From: Pseudomonadota bacterium
Lineage (GTDB): Bacteria; Desulfobacterota; Desulfobulbia; Desulfobulbales; Desulfurivibrionaceae
NCBI GenBank assembly: GCA_018830485.1
Contig: JAHJRQ010000013.1
Location: forward strand, 124,001-188,000
Reading direction: 5' to 3'
Length of the DNA stretch: 64,000 nt
The translations under genes and the position numbers were made by a program. Positions 4,055 through 63,120 of the stretch are shown here, piece after piece. Under the pieces are notes generated by a model. The model was not told the origin of the DNA and made no database searches. It saw only the letters and a program-made list of their open reading frames with translations. Every line of letters begins with the position of its first letter. Positions within the stretch are counted from its first letter, which is position 1.

Positions 4055-5141
4055 GGGAGGTCCTGTGGTATTTATAGTAGGCGGCGCAGGCGCCCTCGCC
4101 GGATACCATGGTTGCCCCCAGGGGATGCTCCGGGGTGCATTCCCGGCCAAAAGCCGGACAGCCATCGGGTTTGATCAGCCCCTGCAGCACGCTGCCGCTC
4201 TTGCACAACTCCGATTCGCGCACGGTGATGGTCTCAACGGCAAACTTTCGCTCCGCGTCGTAGGCGGCAAGATGCTCCCTGATCACCAGGCCGCTGGCAG
4301 GCAGGACTCCGATCCCCCGCCAGGGACGGTCACGCACCGCAAAGACCTCGGCCATGATCCGTTGCGCCGCCTGATTGCCGTCCCGGCTCACTGATCGGCC
4401 GTATTGGTTCTCCACCCCATGCTCCCCCGCCTCAAGCTGGCGAAGCACCATGAGCAGACCGGCCAGGATATCGAGGAGTTCAAAGCCGGTGACCACGATG
4501 GGCACCTTAAATTCCTCGGCCAAAGGGACGTACTCCTGCCAACCCATGATCGTGCAGACATGCCCAGGAGCCAGATAGCCCCGCACCCGGTTGGCTGGCG
4601 AAGAGAGCAGTGCCCGGATGGCGGGCGGCACGAGAACATGACTGGCCAGCAGGCTGAAGTTTGTCAGCCCTTCGCGTTTGGCTTGCAACAAGGCCATGCC
4701 ATTGCCCGGCGCCGTTGTTTCAAAACCGACGGCAAGAAAAACCACTTCCCGCTCCGGGTTTTGGCGGGCCAGGGCCACGGCTTCCAAGGGCGAATACACC
4801 ATGCGCACATCGGCGCCGGCGGATTTCGCCATGGACAGACTGGCACCGCTGCCCGGCACCCGGAGCATGTCGCCGAAGCTGGCAAAGATCACCTCGGGCC
4901 TGGCCGCGATGGCCACGGCCCGGTCGATGGTCTCCACCGGGGTCACGCACACCGGGCAACCCGGGCCATGCACCAGCTCAACCTGGGCGGGCAACAACTG
5001 ATCCAACCCGTTTTTCATGATGGCATGGGTATGGCCGCCGCAGATCTCCATGACCACCCACGGCCGGGTCACAGTCTGGCTGATTTCCGCAAGAAGACGG
5101 ACAGCCAGGGCCGGATCGCGGTATTCATCGACATATTTCAT
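4047..5141 (-). CDS. hypD: hydrogenase maturation protein HypD
   Basis: HypD is a [4Fe-4S] scaffold that, with HypC, assembles the Fe(CN)2CO unit for [NiFe] hydrogenase. The 364 residues show the family signatures [10 protein letters not shown] near residue 32, [10 protein letters not shown] near residue 60, VGFETTAP around residue 138, and a C-terminal Cys-containing region. Length is normal. It is transcribed after hypC across a 101-bp gap that holds an inverted repeat, and overlaps hypE by 8 bp. Everything about it looks intact. Confidence 0.97.
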
Positions 5142-56031: not shown

Positions 56032-56089
56032 TGCGCATGGTTTCATCTCCGCTGGAGCAAATTTTCCACCGGATATGAAACCATGCGCA
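56032..56089 (+). other. long intercistronic hairpin
   Basis: Perfect 15-bp arms TGCGCATGGTTTCAT (56032-56046) and ATGAAACCATGCGCA (56075-56089) with a 28-base loop lie between the 75-residue gene and the cytochrome c gene. No T-run follows. It may set the relative levels of the two parts of the operon. Confidence 0.7.
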
Positions 56090-56202
56090 CAGGTGCGTCG
56101 ACCCCTGCAAGCGGAGAAAATGTTCAGCAAGCCGGCCCATGCGCACCTGCCGCAGGCAGGGCAAACCCGCTGTTAAAGAATGCACTGGGAGATCCAGAAA
56201 CA

Positions 56203-57357
56203 ATGAAAAATTTAATCCCAACGATCGGCATCGGCTTGGCAGTCGCTCTCGCCTGTCTTGCGGCGGCTCCCATGGCAGGGGCCGCCTCCATCGAAAACTC
56301 CGAATGTTTCGCCTGCCACAGCGACGAAGGTCTCACCAGAAGCGCAACCGAGGGCATGAATCACAGCCGGATGAGCGAACAGCTCTTTATTGACGAAACA
56401 CAATTCAACCATTCCGTCCATCACAACAACGGCATCGGCTGCGTTGATTGCCACATCGACATCACTAAGCTGGACTACAAGCAAGATCTGCCCCACAAAA
56501 AACAACTGGATCTGGTCAACTGCACCATGTGTCATGAGGAATCGAGCAACGCCTTCAAGGACAGCGTGCACATGAAAATCCGCGGCAAAGGTATCACCAT
56601 GAACTGCAATGCCTGCCACGAATACCACTATGCAACGCGGCAGGAAGCCCTGTCGGTGACGGATCGAACCAACAATGGCTGCACCAAATGCCACAATCCC
56701 TACCAGTCGCATGACTGGCTGCCCCAGAAAAACGAACACTTCTCCTTTGTGGAATGCGTTGTCTGCCATGTCCCTGAAGCTCCGCGCCATATTCGCCTCT
56801 CCTTTTTCGATCTGATGACAAACAAATTCTATTCCAGCCAGGAGATACTTAAAATTCTCGGCATCAGCGAAAGCGAGTTCAGGCTCCTTCTGGATACAGA
56901 TAAGGATGACATCATCAACGTCAAAGAGTTTGAGAATCTGGAACTGATCCTCCGGCAAAAAAACGTCCATGCAATTTTTCATGCCGAACTCGTTGCCAAG
57001 ATGCATCCCAGTGTCCATAAAATAAACAGGGGACAGGCGGAACGGGATTGCAAAACCTGCCATTCCGCGAACTCCCCCTATTTCGATGCTGTTACCCTTG
57101 TGCTTGCCAAGGATGATGGAAGCTCGGACCACTTCCAGGTGGACAGGGCCGTGCTGGAAAGCTTCAGCCTGAGGCATTTTTACGCACTGGGCGGCACAAG
57201 GATAAAGCTTCTCGACAAGATAGGCTTTCTTCTTCTCGCCGGGGGCTTCTCCGTGGTGCTTGGCCATCTGGCCGTGCGCATCGCCACCATTCCCCTGCGC
57301 AGAAAGAATGCATACGAAGCAGAACAATCAAGCATGCAAGAGGAGGTTTCCCGATGA
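56203..57357 (+). CDS. membrane-anchored heptahaem cytochrome c with EF-hand-like loop
   Basis: The 384 residues have a signal peptide (cleavage near AGA-AS) and seven CxxCH motifs at 35-39, 80-84, 107-111, 135-139, 160-164, 185-189 and 283-287. Between haems six and seven lies a canonical-looking calcium loop at 231-242 (DTDKDDIINVKE), then F243. A C-terminal helix (about 336-357, DKIGFLLLAGGFSVV) anchors it, with a basic cytoplasmic tail. It overlaps the cytochrome b gene by ATGA, so the pair should act together in electron transfer across the membrane. I cannot place it in a named family. The start is ATG 56203. Confidence 0.88.
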   Translation: MKNLIPTIGIGLAVALACLAAAPMAGAASIENSECFACHSDEGLTRSATEGMNHSRMSEQLFIDETQFNHSVHHNNGIGCVDCHIDITKLDYKQDLPHKKQLDLVNCTMCHEESSNAFKDSVHMKIRGKGITMNCNACHEYHYATRQEALSVTDRTNNGCTKCHNPYQSHDWLPQKNEHFSFVECVVCHVPEAPRHIRLSFFDLMTNKFYSSQEILKILGISESEFRLLLDTDKDDIINVKEFENLELILRQKNVHAIFHAELVAKMHPSVHKINRGQAERDCKTCHSANSPYFDAVTLVLAKDDGSSDHFQVDRAVLESFSLRHFYALGGTRIKLLDKIGFLLLAGGFSVVLGHLAVRIATIPLRRKNAYEAEQSSMQEEVSR

Positions 57358-57974
57358 GCCATGAGAAACTGATCTATATTCACCCGGCCCCGGTTCGCGT
57401 CTGGCATTGGCTCAATGCAGCAGGGATAGTTCTGCTGGTTGTCACCGGTTTTCAAATCCGTTATGCGGAAATCCTCAACCTCATGCCGCTCAAAGACAGC
57501 GTAAGCCTGCATAACTTTACCGGCTTCGGCGTGATCGCCGCCTACTTCCTCTGGCTTTTTTACTATCTGAGCACCGGCAAAATCATCATTTATTTTCCGG
57601 ACCCCAGCACCTTCGTGGCCAAGGCAGTGAAACAGGTCAAATTTTACGGCTATGGCATTTTTCGGGGCGAACCCAATCCCCACGTCATGACCCCGGAAAA
57701 TAAATTCAACGTCCTCCAACAAAAGGCGTACCTGGGGATCATGTTTGTCCTGCTGCCGGCCCAGATGATCTCCGGTGTTTTTCTTTGGAAGGTAAAAGGC
57801 TATTCGGACTACATCCATCTCTTGGGCGGGATACGGATCATCGACACGATCCATGTTCTCTTCTTTTTCTTTTTTACATCCTTTCTGGTGGTGCATTGCT
57901 ATCTCGCCACCCTGGGGCATACGCCGCTGGCGCATTTCAAAGCGATGATCACCGGCTATGAGGAGCACCATTAA
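57354..57974 (+). CDS. cytochrome b, four-helix (thiosulfate reductase-type membrane subunit)
   Basis: The 206 residues have four hydrophobic helices with His in the right places (PVRVWHWLN, SLHNFTGF, IHLLGG, DTIHVLFF and FLVVHCY), the pattern of di-haem b561-type membrane subunits such as PhsC-like and hydrogenase cytochrome b. It should take electrons from, or give them to, the quinone pool, paired with the heptahaem protein. It overlaps that gene by 4 bp. A bidirectional terminator follows. Confidence 0.88.
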   Translation: MSHEKLIYIHPAPVRVWHWLNAAGIVLLVVTGFQIRYAEILNLMPLKDSVSLHNFTGFGVIAAYFLWLFYYLSTGKIIIYFPDPSTFVAKAVKQVKFYGYGIFRGEPNPHVMTPENKFNVLQQKAYLGIMFVLLPAQMISGVFLWKVKGYSDYIHLLGGIRIIDTIHVLFFFFFTSFLVVHCYLATLGHTPLAHFKAMITGYEEHH

Positions 57975-58065: not shown

Positions 58066-60198
58066 TCATTCGCGACCTGCTGGAAAGGAGATATCAAATT
58101 TTTTCATCTTCCGCCAGAGCGTTGCCTTGTCGATGCCGAGGTAGGCGGCCGACTTGCCCCGATGCCCGTTGAACCTTTGCAGGGCTTCAAAAATCGTGCT
58201 CGCTTCGGCATTAAGCAGAGGATTGGCCTCGATGCGGAGATTCTCATGGCCGGCCCCTTCCCCGGAAATTCGCGGAACCAGACCTTCGGGCAGATGCATT
58301 CTTTCGATCGTCTCTCCATGGCAAAGAACAAAACAGTATTCGATGATATTTTCCAACTCCCGCACATTCCCGGGAAATTCGTGGCGCATAAGAATATCCA
58401 GAACATCCGGGGACACGGTTCTTATCTGTTTGTTTTTCAACTTATTAAACTTATCTATGAAATGCTCAACAAGAAGAGGGATGTCCTCCCGACGCTCCGC
58501 CAGCGGAGGCAGGGATATCTTGATGACATTGAGACGGTAGAAGAGATCGGCGCGGAAGGTTCCCTTGTCCACCTGCTCCTTCAGATTCTTGTTGGTGGCG
58601 GCAATCACCCGGACATCAGTCTTGCGGGTGGCGGTGCCTCCCAAGGGCTCATACTCCTTTTCCTGGAGAACCCGCAGAAGCTTCAACTGCAAGGCAGGCG
58701 ATATATCGCCGATTTCATCGAGAAAAATGGTCCCTTTTTCCGCCAGGGCGAAGCGTCCGGGCTTGTTGCCCTTGGCATCGGTGAAAGCCCCCTTTTCGTA
58801 GCCGAACAGTTCCGACTCCAGCAGGGTATCGGGGAGCGCGGCACAGTTGAGGGTGATATATCTGCCCTTGCGTTTACTTAGGGAATGGATGGCCTTGGCA
58901 AACAGCTCCTTGCCTGACCCGCTTGCCCCTTCGATGAGAACCGTGCTCTCACTTCTGGCAATATCGGGGAGGGTGGCAAAAATATTTTTGATTGTGTGAT
59001 TTTTGCTGATGATGTCATTGAAACTGTATGTTTCGGAAATTTCCTTGCGCAGGGCTTCCATGGAGGAAATATCCCGAAAGGTCTCGACCCCGCCGATGAC
59101 CTCGCCGTTCTCGCCGCGCAGTACAGAGGTGTTGACGCTGATGGGCACAAGATCGTCTTCCGCATCGTGGATATAGACCTTTATATTTGAGACATCCCTG
59201 CCGGTTGCAATGGACTTCTTCAGGGCGCAGGTCTCTTGACAGATATCGGCCCGAAAAACCTCATAGCACTTTCTGCCCATGGCTTCGCTGCGGTGCACCC
59301 CGGTGATATCCTCGGCTGCCCGGTTGAAGGAAGTGATCCGGAAATCCTTGTCCACGGTGAAGGCGCCGTCGGCAATGGAGTCAAGGATCAACTCACCCAT
59401 GGAAACTTCCTTGCGCAGGGACTCCTGGGTGGAGATGTCCCGGAAGGTCTCCACGCCGCCGATGATCTCGCCGCGCTCGTTGCGCAGAGCGGAAGCGCTG
59501 ACGCTGACGGGCACAAAGTCTTCTTCGATATCCTGGAGATAGACCTTGTGAACTACCGCATCCAGGCCGGTTTCAATGGATTTCTTCAGAATGCAGTCCG
59601 TCTGGCAGATATTGGCGCGCAGCACTTCGTGGCATTTTTTGCCGACGGCGTCGCAACGGTTTATCCCGGTAATATCCTCGGCCGCCCGGTTGAAGGAAGT
59701 GATCCGGAAATCCTTGTCCACGGTGAAGGCACCGTCGGCAATGGAATCAAGGATAAAATTGTCCAGAAAGATTTCCTTGCGCAGATCCTCCAGCGCTGAG
59801 ACATCCCGGAAGGTTTCCACCCCGCCGATGATTTCCCCTTGCTCGTTGCGCAGCACTGAACCGGTTACACTGATCGGGAGGAGGGTCCCGCTTTTTGTGC
59901 GGATGTTGACCCCGTGCTTGATGACCTCTCCGCCGGTTCCCATGGCTATTTTGATCGCGCAGGTGAAATCGCAGATGTCGGACTGAAAAATCTCATGGCA
60001 TTTCCGGCCGATGGCTTCTGCCGCTGTGACCCCGGTAATTTTTTCGGCGGAACGGTTGAACGAGGTGATCCGCAAATCCCGGTCAACGGTGAAGACCCCT
60101 TCCGTGATGGCGCCAAGAATGCTGCCACGGAAGGGCGAAAACGGATTTTTCGGGTCGAGTGGACACATGGCTGCCGGACAGGCTCCTTGGCGGATCAT
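58066..60198 (-). CDS. sigma-54-dependent activator with three Cys-motif PAS domains
   Basis: The 710 residues have PAS domains at about 25-135, 148-255 and 270-377. Each carries a C-x8-C-x3-C pattern: Cys67/76/80, Cys189/198/202 and Cys311/320/324. An AAA+ domain follows (about 395-625) with Walker A GASGSGKE, the loop GAFTDA (usual GAFTGA with Gly to Asp), Walker B TIFLDEIGD and the arginine-finger region, and a Fis-type HTH (about 670-705). There is no membrane helix, so the signal is cytoplasmic, likely redox. It is convergent with the sigma-54-promoter operon at 55287-57974, which it probably activates. The start is ATG 60198; ATG 60168 is an alternative. Neither has a perfect ribosome binding site. 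Confidence 0.93.
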   Translation of the reverse strand: MIRQGACPAAMCPLDPKNPFSPFRGSILGAITEGVFTVDRDLRITSFNRSAEKITGVTAAEAIGRKCHEIFQSDICDFTCAIKIAMGTGGEVIKHGVNIRTKSGTLLPISVTGSVLRNEQGEIIGGVETFRDVSALEDLRKEIFLDNFILDSIADGAFTVDKDFRITSFNRAAEDITGINRCDAVGKKCHEVLRANICQTDCILKKSIETGLDAVVHKVYLQDIEEDFVPVSVSASALRNERGEIIGGVETFRDISTQESLRKEVSMGELILDSIADGAFTVDKDFRITSFNRAAEDITGVHRSEAMGRKCYEVFRADICQETCALKKSIATGRDVSNIKVYIHDAEDDLVPISVNTSVLRGENGEVIGGVETFRDISSMEALRKEISETYSFNDIISKNHTIKNIFATLPDIARSESTVLIEGASGSGKELFAKAIHSLSKRKGRYITLNCAALPDTLLESELFGYEKGAFTDAKGNKPGRFALAEKGTIFLDEIGDISPALQLKLLRVLQEKEYEPLGGTATRKTDVRVIAATNKNLKEQVDKGTFRADLFYRLNVIKISLPPLAERREDIPLLVEHFIDKFNKLKNKQIRTVSPDVLDILMRHEFPGNVRELENIIEYCFVLCHGETIERMHLPEGLVPRISGEGAGHENLRIEANPLLNAEASTIFEALQRFNGHRGKSAAYLGIDKATLWRKMKKFDISFPAGRE

Positions 60199-60333
60199 TC
60201 AGGGGAACAAGCAGTTGGTCACGGAAAGGCGCGGCGAGAGACTGAATCAACTATACCGGGGACGGTGAAAATAACAAGAACGTTTTGGGCTCTTCCCGCC
60301 GACGCGACTTATTGCGCCGGCCACAAATCCCCC

Positions 60334-60362
60334 TTGACATGACCCCGTAAAAACTTTACAAC
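60334..60362 (+). promoter_or_regulatory. promoter of the NifX-like/MinD/flavodoxin operon
   Basis: TTGACA (60334-60339), 17 bases and TACAAC (60357-60362) lie about 70 bp before the first gene. The -35 is perfect; the -10 is weak, four of six. Confidence 0.5.
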
Positions 60363-60430
60363 AATTATGAGCATATGCACACAATAAGCGCGCGCCCACC
60401 CTTCCACCCCTATTTTCCGGAGGATTCGCC

Positions 60431-60889
60431 ATGAAAATCGCCATCAGCGCCACAGGGAAAGACCTTTCTTCCAGAGTTGACCCACGTTTTGGACGGGCCG
60501 CGTACCTGCTCATTGTCGATCCGGACACCAAGACCATCGTCGAGGCCATTGACAACCAGGCCGCCGGCGAAGCGGCGCAGGGCGCCGGCATCAAAGCGGC
60601 TGGTCTTATTGCCGACGCCGGTGCAGGGGCGGTGCTCACCGGCGTTGTCGGCCCCAAGGCCGCATCCGTCTGCGAAAAAGCAGGAATTACCATGCTGAAC
60701 AACATTACGGGAACAGTGGCCGAGGCAATCGATCAGTTCCGGGCCGGGCTGGATGCTCCCGCGCCGGGCACGCCTTCCCCGCCGCAGACAGGCTCACAAC
60801 CGCCAACCCCTTGCAGGCAGAAAAAAGGCAAGGGGTTGGGCCGGGGATGCGGCACGGGCGGCTGCCGGGCCAGGCGGGGCGGGGCATGA
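60431..60889 (+). CDS. NifX/NifB-C-terminal-like (dinitrogenase Fe-Mo cofactor family) protein
   Basis: The 152 residues begin with a domain of the NifX/NafY family (KIAISATGKDLSSRVDPRFGRA, about 1-105). A Pro-rich linker follows and then a short tail with Cys and Gly (CGTGGC). Such small proteins carry or bind metal clusters. The tail with closely spaced Cys may help. CGGAGG precedes the ATG. It overlaps the first MinD gene by ATGA. No nif genes are in the window, so nitrogen fixation is not implied. Confidence 0.86.
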   Translation: MKIAISATGKDLSSRVDPRFGRAAYLLIVDPDTKTIVEAIDNQAAGEAAQGAGIKAAGLIADAGAGAVLTGVVGPKAASVCEKAGITMLNNITGTVAEAIDQFRAGLDAPAPGTPSPPQTGSQPPTPCRQKKGKGLGRGCGTGGCRARRGGA

Positions 60890-61716
60890 AAATCGCCATT
60901 GCCAGCGGCAAGGGAGGGACGGGCAAAACCACCATTGCCGTAAGCCTTGCCCTGGCCGCCGACGGACCGGTCCATTACGCGGATTGCGATGTGGAGGAAC
61001 CCAATGGCCACATTCTGCTCAGGCCGGTTCTGGATCAACGCCGTGAATTCGCCCTCACCGTGCCGGAGGTGGTTGAGGCGCAATGCAGCGGCTGCGGCGA
61101 GTGCCGGGATATCTGCCGCTTCAACGCCATCACGGTTTTCGGTTCCACGGCCATGGCCTTCACGGAACTCTGCCATTCCTGCGGGGGCTGCTTTCTGGTC
61201 TGCCCGGAAAACGCACTCACCAGGGGAACGAGGGTGCTGGGCCTCCTGGAAAGCGGCCGGGCAGGCACTATCGGCTTCAGCCAGGGCACCCTCCGGGTAG
61301 GAGAAGCCATGGCCGCGCCGCTTATCAGCGCGGTGAAGGAAGAAGCCTTCCTCACAGATGGGCTTGTCATCCTCGATGCGCCTCCGGGTACATCCTGCCC
61401 CCTCCTTGCCGCCATAACCGGCGCCGACTACACCCTGCTGGTCAGCGAGGAGACCCCCTTCGGCCTTCATGACCTGCGGCTTGCAGTGGGAGTTTTGCGT
61501 AAACTGGAGCAGCCCTTCGGAGTCATCCTCAACAGGGCCGACCTGGGCGATGGTAAAACAGGGAAATGGTGCCGGGAGGAAAATATCCCCGTGCATCTTG
61601 AAATCCCTTTTGACCGGAAGATAGCCGAAGGCTACGCCGCCGGCATTCCCCTGTTCGACTGCCGGCCGGAACTGCTCCCCATTTTCTCCTCCCTGCTCAA
61701 GGAGATCAGCCGATGA
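60886..61716 (+). CDS. ferredoxin-MinD family ATPase, first
   Basis: The 276 residues have a deviant Walker A (SGKGGTGKTTIA) typical of MinD/Mrp ATPases. Inserted near residues 65-105 are two [4Fe-4S] motifs (CSGCGECRDIC and CHSCGGCFLVCP). Later come ILDAPPGTSCP and the ATPase C-terminal elements. The protein likely uses ATP to move electrons or clusters to a partner. It overlaps both its neighbours by 4 bp. Related genes occur as pairs in anaerobes, and their function is not settled. Confidence 0.92.
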   Translation: MKIAIASGKGGTGKTTIAVSLALAADGPVHYADCDVEEPNGHILLRPVLDQRREFALTVPEVVEAQCSGCGECRDICRFNAITVFGSTAMAFTELCHSCGGCFLVCPENALTRGTRVLGLLESGRAGTIGFSQGTLRVGEAMAAPLISAVKEEAFLTDGLVILDAPPGTSCPLLAAITGADYTLLVSEETPFGLHDLRLAVGVLRKLEQPFGVILNRADLGDGKTGKWCREENIPVHLEIPFDRKIAEGYAAGIPLFDCRPELLPIFSSLLKEISR

Positions 61717-62588
61717 AGGAGCTCCTGATCGTAAGCGGCAAGGGCGGCACCGGGAAAACCTCGATAACCGCCGCCCTGGCCATGCTGCTGCCACAAACGG
61801 TCCTGGCGGATTGCGATGTGGATGCCGCCGACCTCCACCTGCTTCTCTCCCCTCGGATCCGCGAGGAGCATGAGTTCCGGTCCGGGGTACTGGCGGTTAT
61901 TAATCCCGCCCTGTGCAACGCCTGCGGAACCTGCGCCGAACTCTGCCAATTCCGGGCCATCCGCATCAACACCACGGCCGAACTGATCCCGTTTTCCTGC
62001 GAGGGATGCGGCGTCTGCGCCCGCTTTTGCCCGGAAGGGGCAATCCGCCTTCAGGAAAAGCACTGCGGGGAGTGGTTTCTTTCCGATACCGAATACGGCC
62101 CCATGATCCATGCCCGCCTGGGCATCGGCGAGGAAAATTCCGGCAAGCTTGTCTCCCTGGTCAAAAAAAGAGCCAGGGAAGAGGCTGAAAAGGCAAATGC
62201 GGCATGGCTGCTTGTGGATGGCCCTCCCGGGATAGGCTGTCCGGTCATCGCCTCGCTCTCCGGAGCCGACCTTGTCCTCCTGGTTACAGAGCCAAGCCTT
62301 TCCGGCCTCCATGATCTCAAAAGGGTGGCGGAACTCGTCCGCCATTTCAAGCTCCCAATGGGGGCGTGCATCAACAAATGGGATCTCCACCCCGGCTACA
62401 GTGCCGATATCTGCCAGGTTTGCCGGGAACAGGCCATCCCGGTCCTCGGCACAATACCATTCGACACGGCCATGGTGGATGCGGTGGTCAAGGGAGTGCC
62501 GCTATTGCAGCAGGCACCGGATTCGGCGGCGGCAAAGGCTGTGCGCGGACTGTACGAAAAAATCATCCAATTATCCCTGTCTGCCTGA
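61713..62588 (+). CDS. ferredoxin-MinD family ATPase, second
   Basis: The 291 residues share the plan of its neighbour: Walker A SGKGGTGKTSIT, ferredoxin motifs CNACGTCAELC and CEGCGVCARFCP (about 68-110), VDGPPGIGCP, and a C-terminal extra CQVC pair (about 233-236). The two are clearly paralogues but differ enough to act as a heterodimer. It starts on the ATGA overlap with the first. The extra Cys pair is absent from its partner. Confidence 0.92.
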   Translation: MKELLIVSGKGGTGKTSITAALAMLLPQTVLADCDVDAADLHLLLSPRIREEHEFRSGVLAVINPALCNACGTCAELCQFRAIRINTTAELIPFSCEGCGVCARFCPEGAIRLQEKHCGEWFLSDTEYGPMIHARLGIGEENSGKLVSLVKKRAREEAEKANAAWLLVDGPPGIGCPVIASLSGADLVLLVTEPSLSGLHDLKRVAELVRHFKLPMGACINKWDLHPGYSADICQVCREQAIPVLGTIPFDTAMVDAVVKGVPLLQQAPDSAAAKAVRGLYEKIIQLSLSA

Positions 62589-62634
62589 CAGGGAAGAAAT
62601 CACACACCCTCACCTTTCACACAGGAGGAACAGC

Positions 62635-63120
62635 ATGAAATCCCTGGTAATTTTCTCATCGCAAACCAACAACACAAGGAAGCTGGCCGAAGCGGTAGCG
62701 ATGGAACTTGACGCCGAGATGGTACCGGTCGATCAAGCAGAAGATCTCGCGGGCTATGATCGCATCGCCCTAGGCTTCTGGTTCAAAGGCGGCGGCCCGG
62801 ATCCGGCGACCCAGGAATTTCTCCCGAAACTGGCGGGGAAAACGGTATTTTTCTTTGCCACGCATGGGGCGTCCGCCAACTCCAGTCATGCAAAAAATGG
62901 CCTGGATAAAGCCGGCGAACTCGCTGTTGGAGCCGTGATAGCGGGCAGCTTCAGTTGCCCGGGCGAGGTTTCCGCCAAGGTCCAAGCTACAGTGGCGGAG
63001 AAAAACCCCAAAGCACCCTGGCTACCGGACGCGCCAGCCGCAGCCGGGCATCCGGACGCCAATGATATTGCCCTTCTGCGCCAGGCAATCCGGACCGCTT
63101 TTCCACGCTCGCATCCATGA
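62635..63120 (+). CDS. flavodoxin-family protein
   Basis: The 161 residues start with the flavodoxin FMN loop (IFSSQTNNTRKLAEAVA), then FWFKGGGPDPATQEFL and FFATHGA for the other FMN contacts. AGGAGG precedes the ATG. It follows the MinD pair by 46 bp and is probably on the same transcript. It may feed electrons into the metal-cluster system. No terminator is clear before 63184. Confidence 0.9.
   Translation: MKSLVIFSSQTNNTRKLAEAVAMELDAEMVPVDQAEDLAGYDRIALGFWFKGGGPDPATQEFLPKLAGKTVFFFATHGASANSSHAKNGLDKAGELAVGAVIAGSFSCPGEVSAKVQATVAEKNPKAPWLPDAPAAAGHPDANDIALLRQAIRTAFPRSHP

Follow-up and report, generated by a model that had tools for sequence, protein, structure and literature searches.

An ORP-type ferredoxin-ATPase operon in a Desulfobulbales genome and a candidate DUF134 operator at its promoter

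The ORP complex of D. vulgaris is composed of the ferredoxin-ATPases Orp3 and Orp4, Orp5, the DiNase protein Orp8 and MrpORP (Orp9), and the orp genes form two divergent operons under the sigma54 activator DVU2106 (PMC6345978, PMC3897727). In vitro, the Orp3-Orp4-Orp8 complex receives Fe-S clusters from MrpORP (PMC6345978). A GAFTDA motif has been reported for DVU2106. In D. desulfuricans, expression of the set Ddes_1864-1867 (DiNase-ATPase-ferredoxin-DiNase) drops strongly on nitrate compared with sulfate growth (PMC5701242), and a like set of Allochromatium vinosum, Alvin_1737-1740, drops together with the dsr genes in pyrite-grown cells (PMC11267869). Both expression patterns are compatible with, though no proof of, a role in sulfur or metal-sulfur chemistry.

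Here we describe an operon related to this system in the window, that is the whole 64,000-nucleotide stretch of DNA analysed. A sequence-only reading of the window had grouped a NifX-like protein, two ferredoxin-MinD ATPases and a flavodoxin at 60431-63120. These four genes constitute a real operon, with the genes, overlaps and gap where that reading had put them: an ATGA overlap occurs twice, and 46 bp separate the second ATPase gene from the flavodoxin gene. The grouping holds as one unit but omits a divergent sigma54-dependent activator gene and an operator palindrome. The genes are as follows.

58066-60198, minus strand: divergent sigma54-dependent activator with three PAS domains and a GAFTDA motif (domains, homology)
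60419-60424, plus strand: GGAGGA, ribosome-binding site of the first gene (sequence)
60431-60889, plus strand: DiNase/NifX-like (NifX/ORP-like) protein, 152 aa (Pfam Nitro_FeMo-Co, E 6e-19)
60886-61716, plus strand: FdA1, ferredoxin-MinD-type ATPase, 276 aa (CbiA/ParA and Fer4; Orp3/Orp4 clade 1)
61713-62588, plus strand: FdA2, ferredoxin-MinD-type ATPase, 291 aa (CbiA/ParA and Fer4; Orp3/Orp4 clade 2)
62635-63120, plus strand: flavodoxin, 161 aa, an optional operon member (Flavodoxin_3, E 9e-28)

Among solved proteins, the nearest relative of the DiNase protein is the D. gigas ORP (2wfb, E 7e-20), with MTH1175 also among the nearest. The DiNase protein is most likely the partner of the ATPases. 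The protein ends in a Gly/Arg/Cys-rich C-terminal tail (window 60812-60886, CGTGGCRARRGGA), and CGCR or GGC motifs occur in comparable tails of its relatives within the order. Beyond the activator gene, window 56083-57974 encodes a multihaem cytochrome-c-like protein and a cytochrome-b-like membrane protein; such a pair adjoins the operon or the activator in several relatives (L063, L065, L067).

The two ATPases are diverged paralogues, as the sequence-only reading had stated, sharing 39% identity; the genome holds no further close relatives of the pair. A Desulfovibrio-type orp layout is found in two other genomes of the phylum, G236 and G293 (loci L170 and L171). In a tree of 188 ATPase domains the paralogues split into two clades (support 1.0 and 0.90), each of which contains a window protein together with an orp-locus protein from L170/L171. 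The duplication is hence an old one, with the window and orp pairs as orthologues. Identity between the window ATPases and their orp-locus counterparts is 45-47% and 49-52%, and over 432 aa the window activator shares 49% identity with its counterpart in the orp locus of G236. The link of the two individually to Orp3 and Orp4 of D. vulgaris is provisional, being based on layout and homology.

MrpORP lies within about 7 kb of FdA2 on the same contig in at least 35 of 46 genomes, a hand count among genomes with both places listed. In the window's own genome no MrpORP was found above the cut-off; its best Mrp scores 385 bits over positions 1-252, is located on another contig and carries no DiNase domain. 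Neither MrpORP nor a second DiNase gene stands beside the window operon. Because MrpORP is missing at the locus, we file it as ORP-like and not as a full orp locus. The unit is nevertheless a variant of the known but poorly understood ORP system of anaerobic microbes, and not a new system.

Gene order is conserved well outside this genome, the absence of which the sequence-only reading had named as grounds for giving up its proposal. Of 64 named-genome loci, 61 have FdA2 no more than 5 kb downstream of FdA1 (53 of them directly after it) and the other three are on short contigs; a DiNase gene is found within 4.5 kb in 60/64, and Mrp-type genes are linked in 24/64. Relatives of FdA2 occur in 182 of the 296 genomes sampled from the phylum. 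More than 15 further phyla have the ATPase pair, almost always accompanied by a DiNase gene. One scan of named genomes, mostly metagenome-assembled and with taxa given by record title, yielded loci from Desulfobacterota, Clostridia, Chloroflexota, Planctomycetes, Bacteroidota, Spirochaetes, Campylobacterota, methanogens, Bathyarchaeota and others. ORP-type ATPase operons rank with the most common uncharacterised gene sets of anaerobes, about 60% of sampled phylum genomes having one. Inside the window's own genus the operon is patchy. A distant second set, made of a DiNase gene, two ferredoxin-ATPase genes, a CDF-type transporter gene and Mrp, is present in three relatives (L075, L076 and L077, from G008, G050 and G007), with a radical-SAM gene next in two of the three; at L026 5800-7957 of the window's own genome (G000:C4), the transporter and a frame-split Mrp gene are kept and the triad is missing.

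Apart from the window's genus, just one genome of the order was found to carry the flavodoxin gene. Two of the closest relatives, G007 and G016, have lost it without trace, a clean deletion that rules it out as a core part. By this comparison of genomes the flavodoxin is a dispensable lineage add-on.

We next list the sequence features of the two ATPases, each of which has two Fer4 motifs by Pfam.

61084-61203, plus strand: FdA1 inserted ferredoxin domain, two CxxCxxCxxxC motifs, C67-C106, all invariant (alignment)
61375-61398, plus strand: FdA1 switch II DAPPGTSC with invariant C171, aligned with the NifH switch-II Cys
61914-62030, plus strand: FdA2 inserted ferredoxin domain, C68-C106 (alignment)
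62217-62240, plus strand: FdA2 switch II DGPPGIGC with C176, conserved in 92/93
62412-62423, plus strand: FdA2 CQVC, a pair private to this genome, second Cys partly conserved

The switch-II motif DxPPGxxC ends in Cys in 97/97 FdA1 and 92/93 FdA2 proteins, and in a profile alignment this residue shares a column with the switch-II Cys of NifH from this genome, a residue that ligates the bridging cluster in the nitrogenase Fe protein. The genome's own Mrp has Asp at this position (DAPPGTGD). Across the 97 FdA1 and 93 FdA2 sequences, no nearly invariant Cys was found in either ATPase beyond the eight ferredoxin cysteines and the switch-II Cys. A four-Cys NifH site cannot be built from one non-ferredoxin Cys per subunit and, since a second bridging Cys outside the ferredoxin domain is absent, FdA1 and FdA2 are not filed as NifH. 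The conserved switch-II Cys supports a device for ATP-gated transfer of electrons or clusters, and the two residues are point-mutation targets that would decide between an Fe-protein-like and a cluster-carrier action.

The CQVC pair, which the sequence-only reading had taken as an added feature of one ATPase, is present in the window protein but is no mark of the paralogue. Its first Cys, C234, occurs in this genome only (the 2/93 FdA2 count is the window counted twice). The second, C237, is found in 51/93 FdA2, and the opposite FdA1 Cys is kept in 70/97, so the pair does not define the paralogue. Being private to this genome, CQVC is also ruled out as an Mrp-type bridging CxxC. Both ATPase structures were predicted with pLDDT 97, and the predicted folds match ApbC/Mrp, MinD and NifH/BchL about equally; in this fold search MinD, Mrp and NifH are not separable, as their Z scores overlap.

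Alignment of the regions upstream of the operon in relatives revealed two conserved blocks, TTGACA and a 22-bp palindrome directly past the -10 region. In the window these elements are:

60334-60339, plus strand: TTGACA, -35-like hexamer, kept in relatives (upstream alignment)
60357-60362, plus strand: TACAAC, -10-like, 17 bp after TTGACA (sequence)
60364-60385, no strand: 22-bp palindrome ATTATGAGCATATGCACACAAT, candidate DUF134 operator (upstream alignment, pattern scans)

The window site has one mismatch to ATTATGNRCATATGYNCATAAT, and six relatives carry the palindrome 46-70 bp upstream of the DiNase gene. Exact TGGN9TGC is absent from 60199-60430 and GGN10GC is not conserved among relatives. 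No conserved sigma54 (-24/-12) promoter was thus found in the intergenic region. A TTGACA promoter is conserved instead, and the window promoter resembles the sigma70 type more than the sigma54 type. With the palindrome lying over the presumed start region, repression would be likelier than activation.

In other phyla this palindrome immediately precedes DUF134 genes that belong to the same gene clusters or lie close to them. DUF134 proteins have a sigma-region-4-like helix-turn-helix, and Pfam lists their function as unknown. We scanned the 296 genomes of the phylum, a data set not chosen for the operon, allowing at most two mismatches. The palindrome was found at 55 sites in 39 genomes, compared to a single genome for the reversed-pattern control. 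DUF134 (PF02001), present in 117 of the 296 genomes, occurs in 37/39 site-bearing genomes and in 80/257 of the others (Fisher p = 8e-15, uncorrected for relatedness), and 34 of the 55 sites stand 4-30 bp upstream of a DUF134 domain match. At loci L060-L142, most of which come from other phyla, 16/35 DUF134 genes have a site with up to four mismatches within 200 bp upstream, compared to 0/700 dinucleotide shuffles. Since the palindrome marks DUF134 genes across many phyla, DUF134 is probably the switch of the operon, and this regulation is computationally well supported while the function of the unit is inferred. Autoregulation of DUF134 is the simplest reading of the site position. Among 32 DUF134 genes checked, four carry a fused DiNase domain, and seven of the other 28 have a DiNase gene immediately downstream. 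Within the open-licence literature, a scope that does not exclude subscription papers, nothing relevant was found on DUF134 function, the palindrome or the regulon of these genes.

Clostridial DUF134 genes at L060, L111, L115 and L122 have a variant palindrome type, GTTATTGACATATGNC..ATAAC, in the same place. Site-bearing places without an obvious link are G094, G121 and five G289 sites. The five identical perfect palindromes of G289 (contigs C1, C11, C18, C61 and C70; L264, L265) each lie less than 100 bp from a contig end, and probably belong to a repeated element that breaks the assembly. A second palindrome of the window's own genome, at C10:213282 upstream of a GAF/PAS sensor kinase gene, has three mismatches to the Desulfobulbales-type pattern and may be due to chance.

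The genome's sole DUF134 gene (PF02001, UPF0251; E 3e-20) lies within L024 2988-10085 (G000:C18) beside dsrAB, a DiNase gene, an SBF-type permease gene, a DUF302 gene and a pyridine-disulfide reductase gene whose product has a rhodanese-like end. The same neighbourhood in G028 (L252) has a clear palindrome between the DUF302 and reductase genes. At the matching place of the window's own genome there is a weak palindrome with six mismatches, the best in that 14-kb region. Regulation of the window operon is hence likely to act in trans and to be shared with sulfur-compound genes. The clearest palindromes, however, mark DUF134 genes, and binding of the same protein to the window site in trans is a proposal.

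These observations bear on what the unit does. It is quite unlikely that it serves in cell division or polar positioning, with MinD-like ATPases whose ferredoxin domains and DiNase partner inform septum placement of the redox or metal state. In both structure and sequence MinD ranks among the best matches, and the D. vulgaris ORP proteins are putatively division-linked, with polar localisation of MrpORP (PMC6345978); MinD, however, has neither a ferredoxin insert nor a switch-II Cys, ApbC and NifH fold matches are equally good, no min or division gene lies beside the window operon, and genes with DUF134 sites sit near sulfur-type reductases. A role as nitrogenase accessory unit is highly improbable. 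The sequence-only reading had noted that nif genes are absent, which is correct for the window but not for the genome: nifH is present (446 bits, above the curated cut-off) at G000:C13:9682-10503 (L184), with a DiNase-domain match at 4436-4687 of the same contig, so the genome may fix nitrogen. NifX-family proteins also carry FeMo-co precursors. Against this role, the operon and nifH are on different contigs, the triad is spread over phyla without a common nif link, and the solved proteins closest to the DiNase protein are ORP and MTH1175; we consider the role not supported.

A generic scaffold or carrier for Fe-S or Mo-Cu-S clusters, in which Mrp-like ATPases act without electron transfer, their ferredoxin clusters serve as cargo or have a structural role and the DiNase protein works as a store or chaperone, appears unlikely. 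Structurally, ApbC/Mrp comes out first (8zkc, Z 22.6 and 25.7), the linkage to Mrp-type genes described above would suit a carrier, and MrpORP is a proven cluster donor in vitro (PMC6345978). Yet the family lacks the C-terminal CxxC by which Mrp/Nbp35 hold their bridging cluster (0/97 FdA1 and 2/93 FdA2, the two being the window's own), and two complete ferredoxin motifs per subunit together with an occasional flavodoxin point to electrons.

We therefore return to an ORP-type operon encoding an ATP- and electron-driven metal-sulfur cluster device that acts on the DiNase protein and is switched by DUF134, a reading that we hold to be reasonably probable. Counting against it are the missing MrpORP and second DiNase gene, the sigma70-like promoter, the single non-ferredoxin Cys per subunit, and the fact that the palindrome is clearest at DUF134 genes themselves. 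Genes, orthology, conserved linkage, conserved cysteines and the association between palindrome and DUF134 are observed here. FdA1 and FdA2, ATPases of the MinD/Mrp/NifH fold, would probably form a heterodimer, each subunit having two putative [4Fe-4S] sites in its inserted ferredoxin domain in addition to the switch-II Cys. ATP would drive electrons and/or a metal-sulfur cluster to or, if the direction is reversed, from the DiNase protein, with flavodoxin as an optional electron donor. Transcription would start from the sigma70-type promoter, with the palindrome over the start region, and the genome's single DUF134 would bind this palindrome in trans, most likely as a repressor answering a presumed signal. 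The sequence-only reading had proposed ATP- and electron-driven cofactor assembly or reductive activation with an unknown target. The parts fit: the ATPases have a deviant Walker A and each subunit has two ferredoxin clusters, the DiNase protein belongs to a cluster-binding family, and a flavodoxin is present. The system is a known one, however, as it matches the ATPase/DiNase core of the ORP complex.

More speculatively, and doubtful at present, DUF134 may be a widespread transcription factor, often paired or fused with a DiNase metal-sulfur sensor, that binds ATTATGARCATATGYTCATAAT and controls its own gene and ORP-type operons; the product of the latter would be a two-subunit, NifH-like, ATP-gated reductase that passes electrons from flavodoxin or ferredoxin through the inserted ferredoxin domains to the switch-II Cys pair and acts on a DiNase-held cluster. 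A candidate regulator with a precise operator offers a handle on the operon's inducing signal and on co-regulated genes. The novel elements are the DUF134 operator with its implied regulator, and the mechanistic hint from the switch-II cysteines.

Compared to the ORP complex, the window has an orthologous ferredoxin-ATPase pair and a DiNase partner in the same operon, with an adjacent divergent sigma54 activator that likewise carries GAFTDA. It differs in lacking MrpORP and a second DiNase gene, in the added flavodoxin gene, in a DUF134-type palindrome that is absent at the two Desulfovibrio-type orp loci, and in having no conserved sigma54 promoter that we could find at the operon. With the Mrp/Nbp35/ApbC carriers, FdA1 and FdA2 share the deviant Walker A and P-loop fold, ApbC 8zkc being their top structural match; they are set apart by the inserted two-cluster ferredoxin domain, by switch II (DxPPGxxC instead of DxPPGTGD) and, from Mrp/Nbp35, by missing the conserved C-terminal CxxC for a bridging cluster. 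With NifH/BchL-type Fe proteins they have in common the fold (Z 20-24), the deviant Walker A and a conserved Cys in switch II that aligns to the same column, whereas FdA1 and FdA2 have one such Cys per subunit, hold their clusters mainly in the inserted ferredoxin domain and are two paralogous subunits. For the DUF134 family, which has no recorded function, a regulator role with a defined palindromic operator is proposed here.
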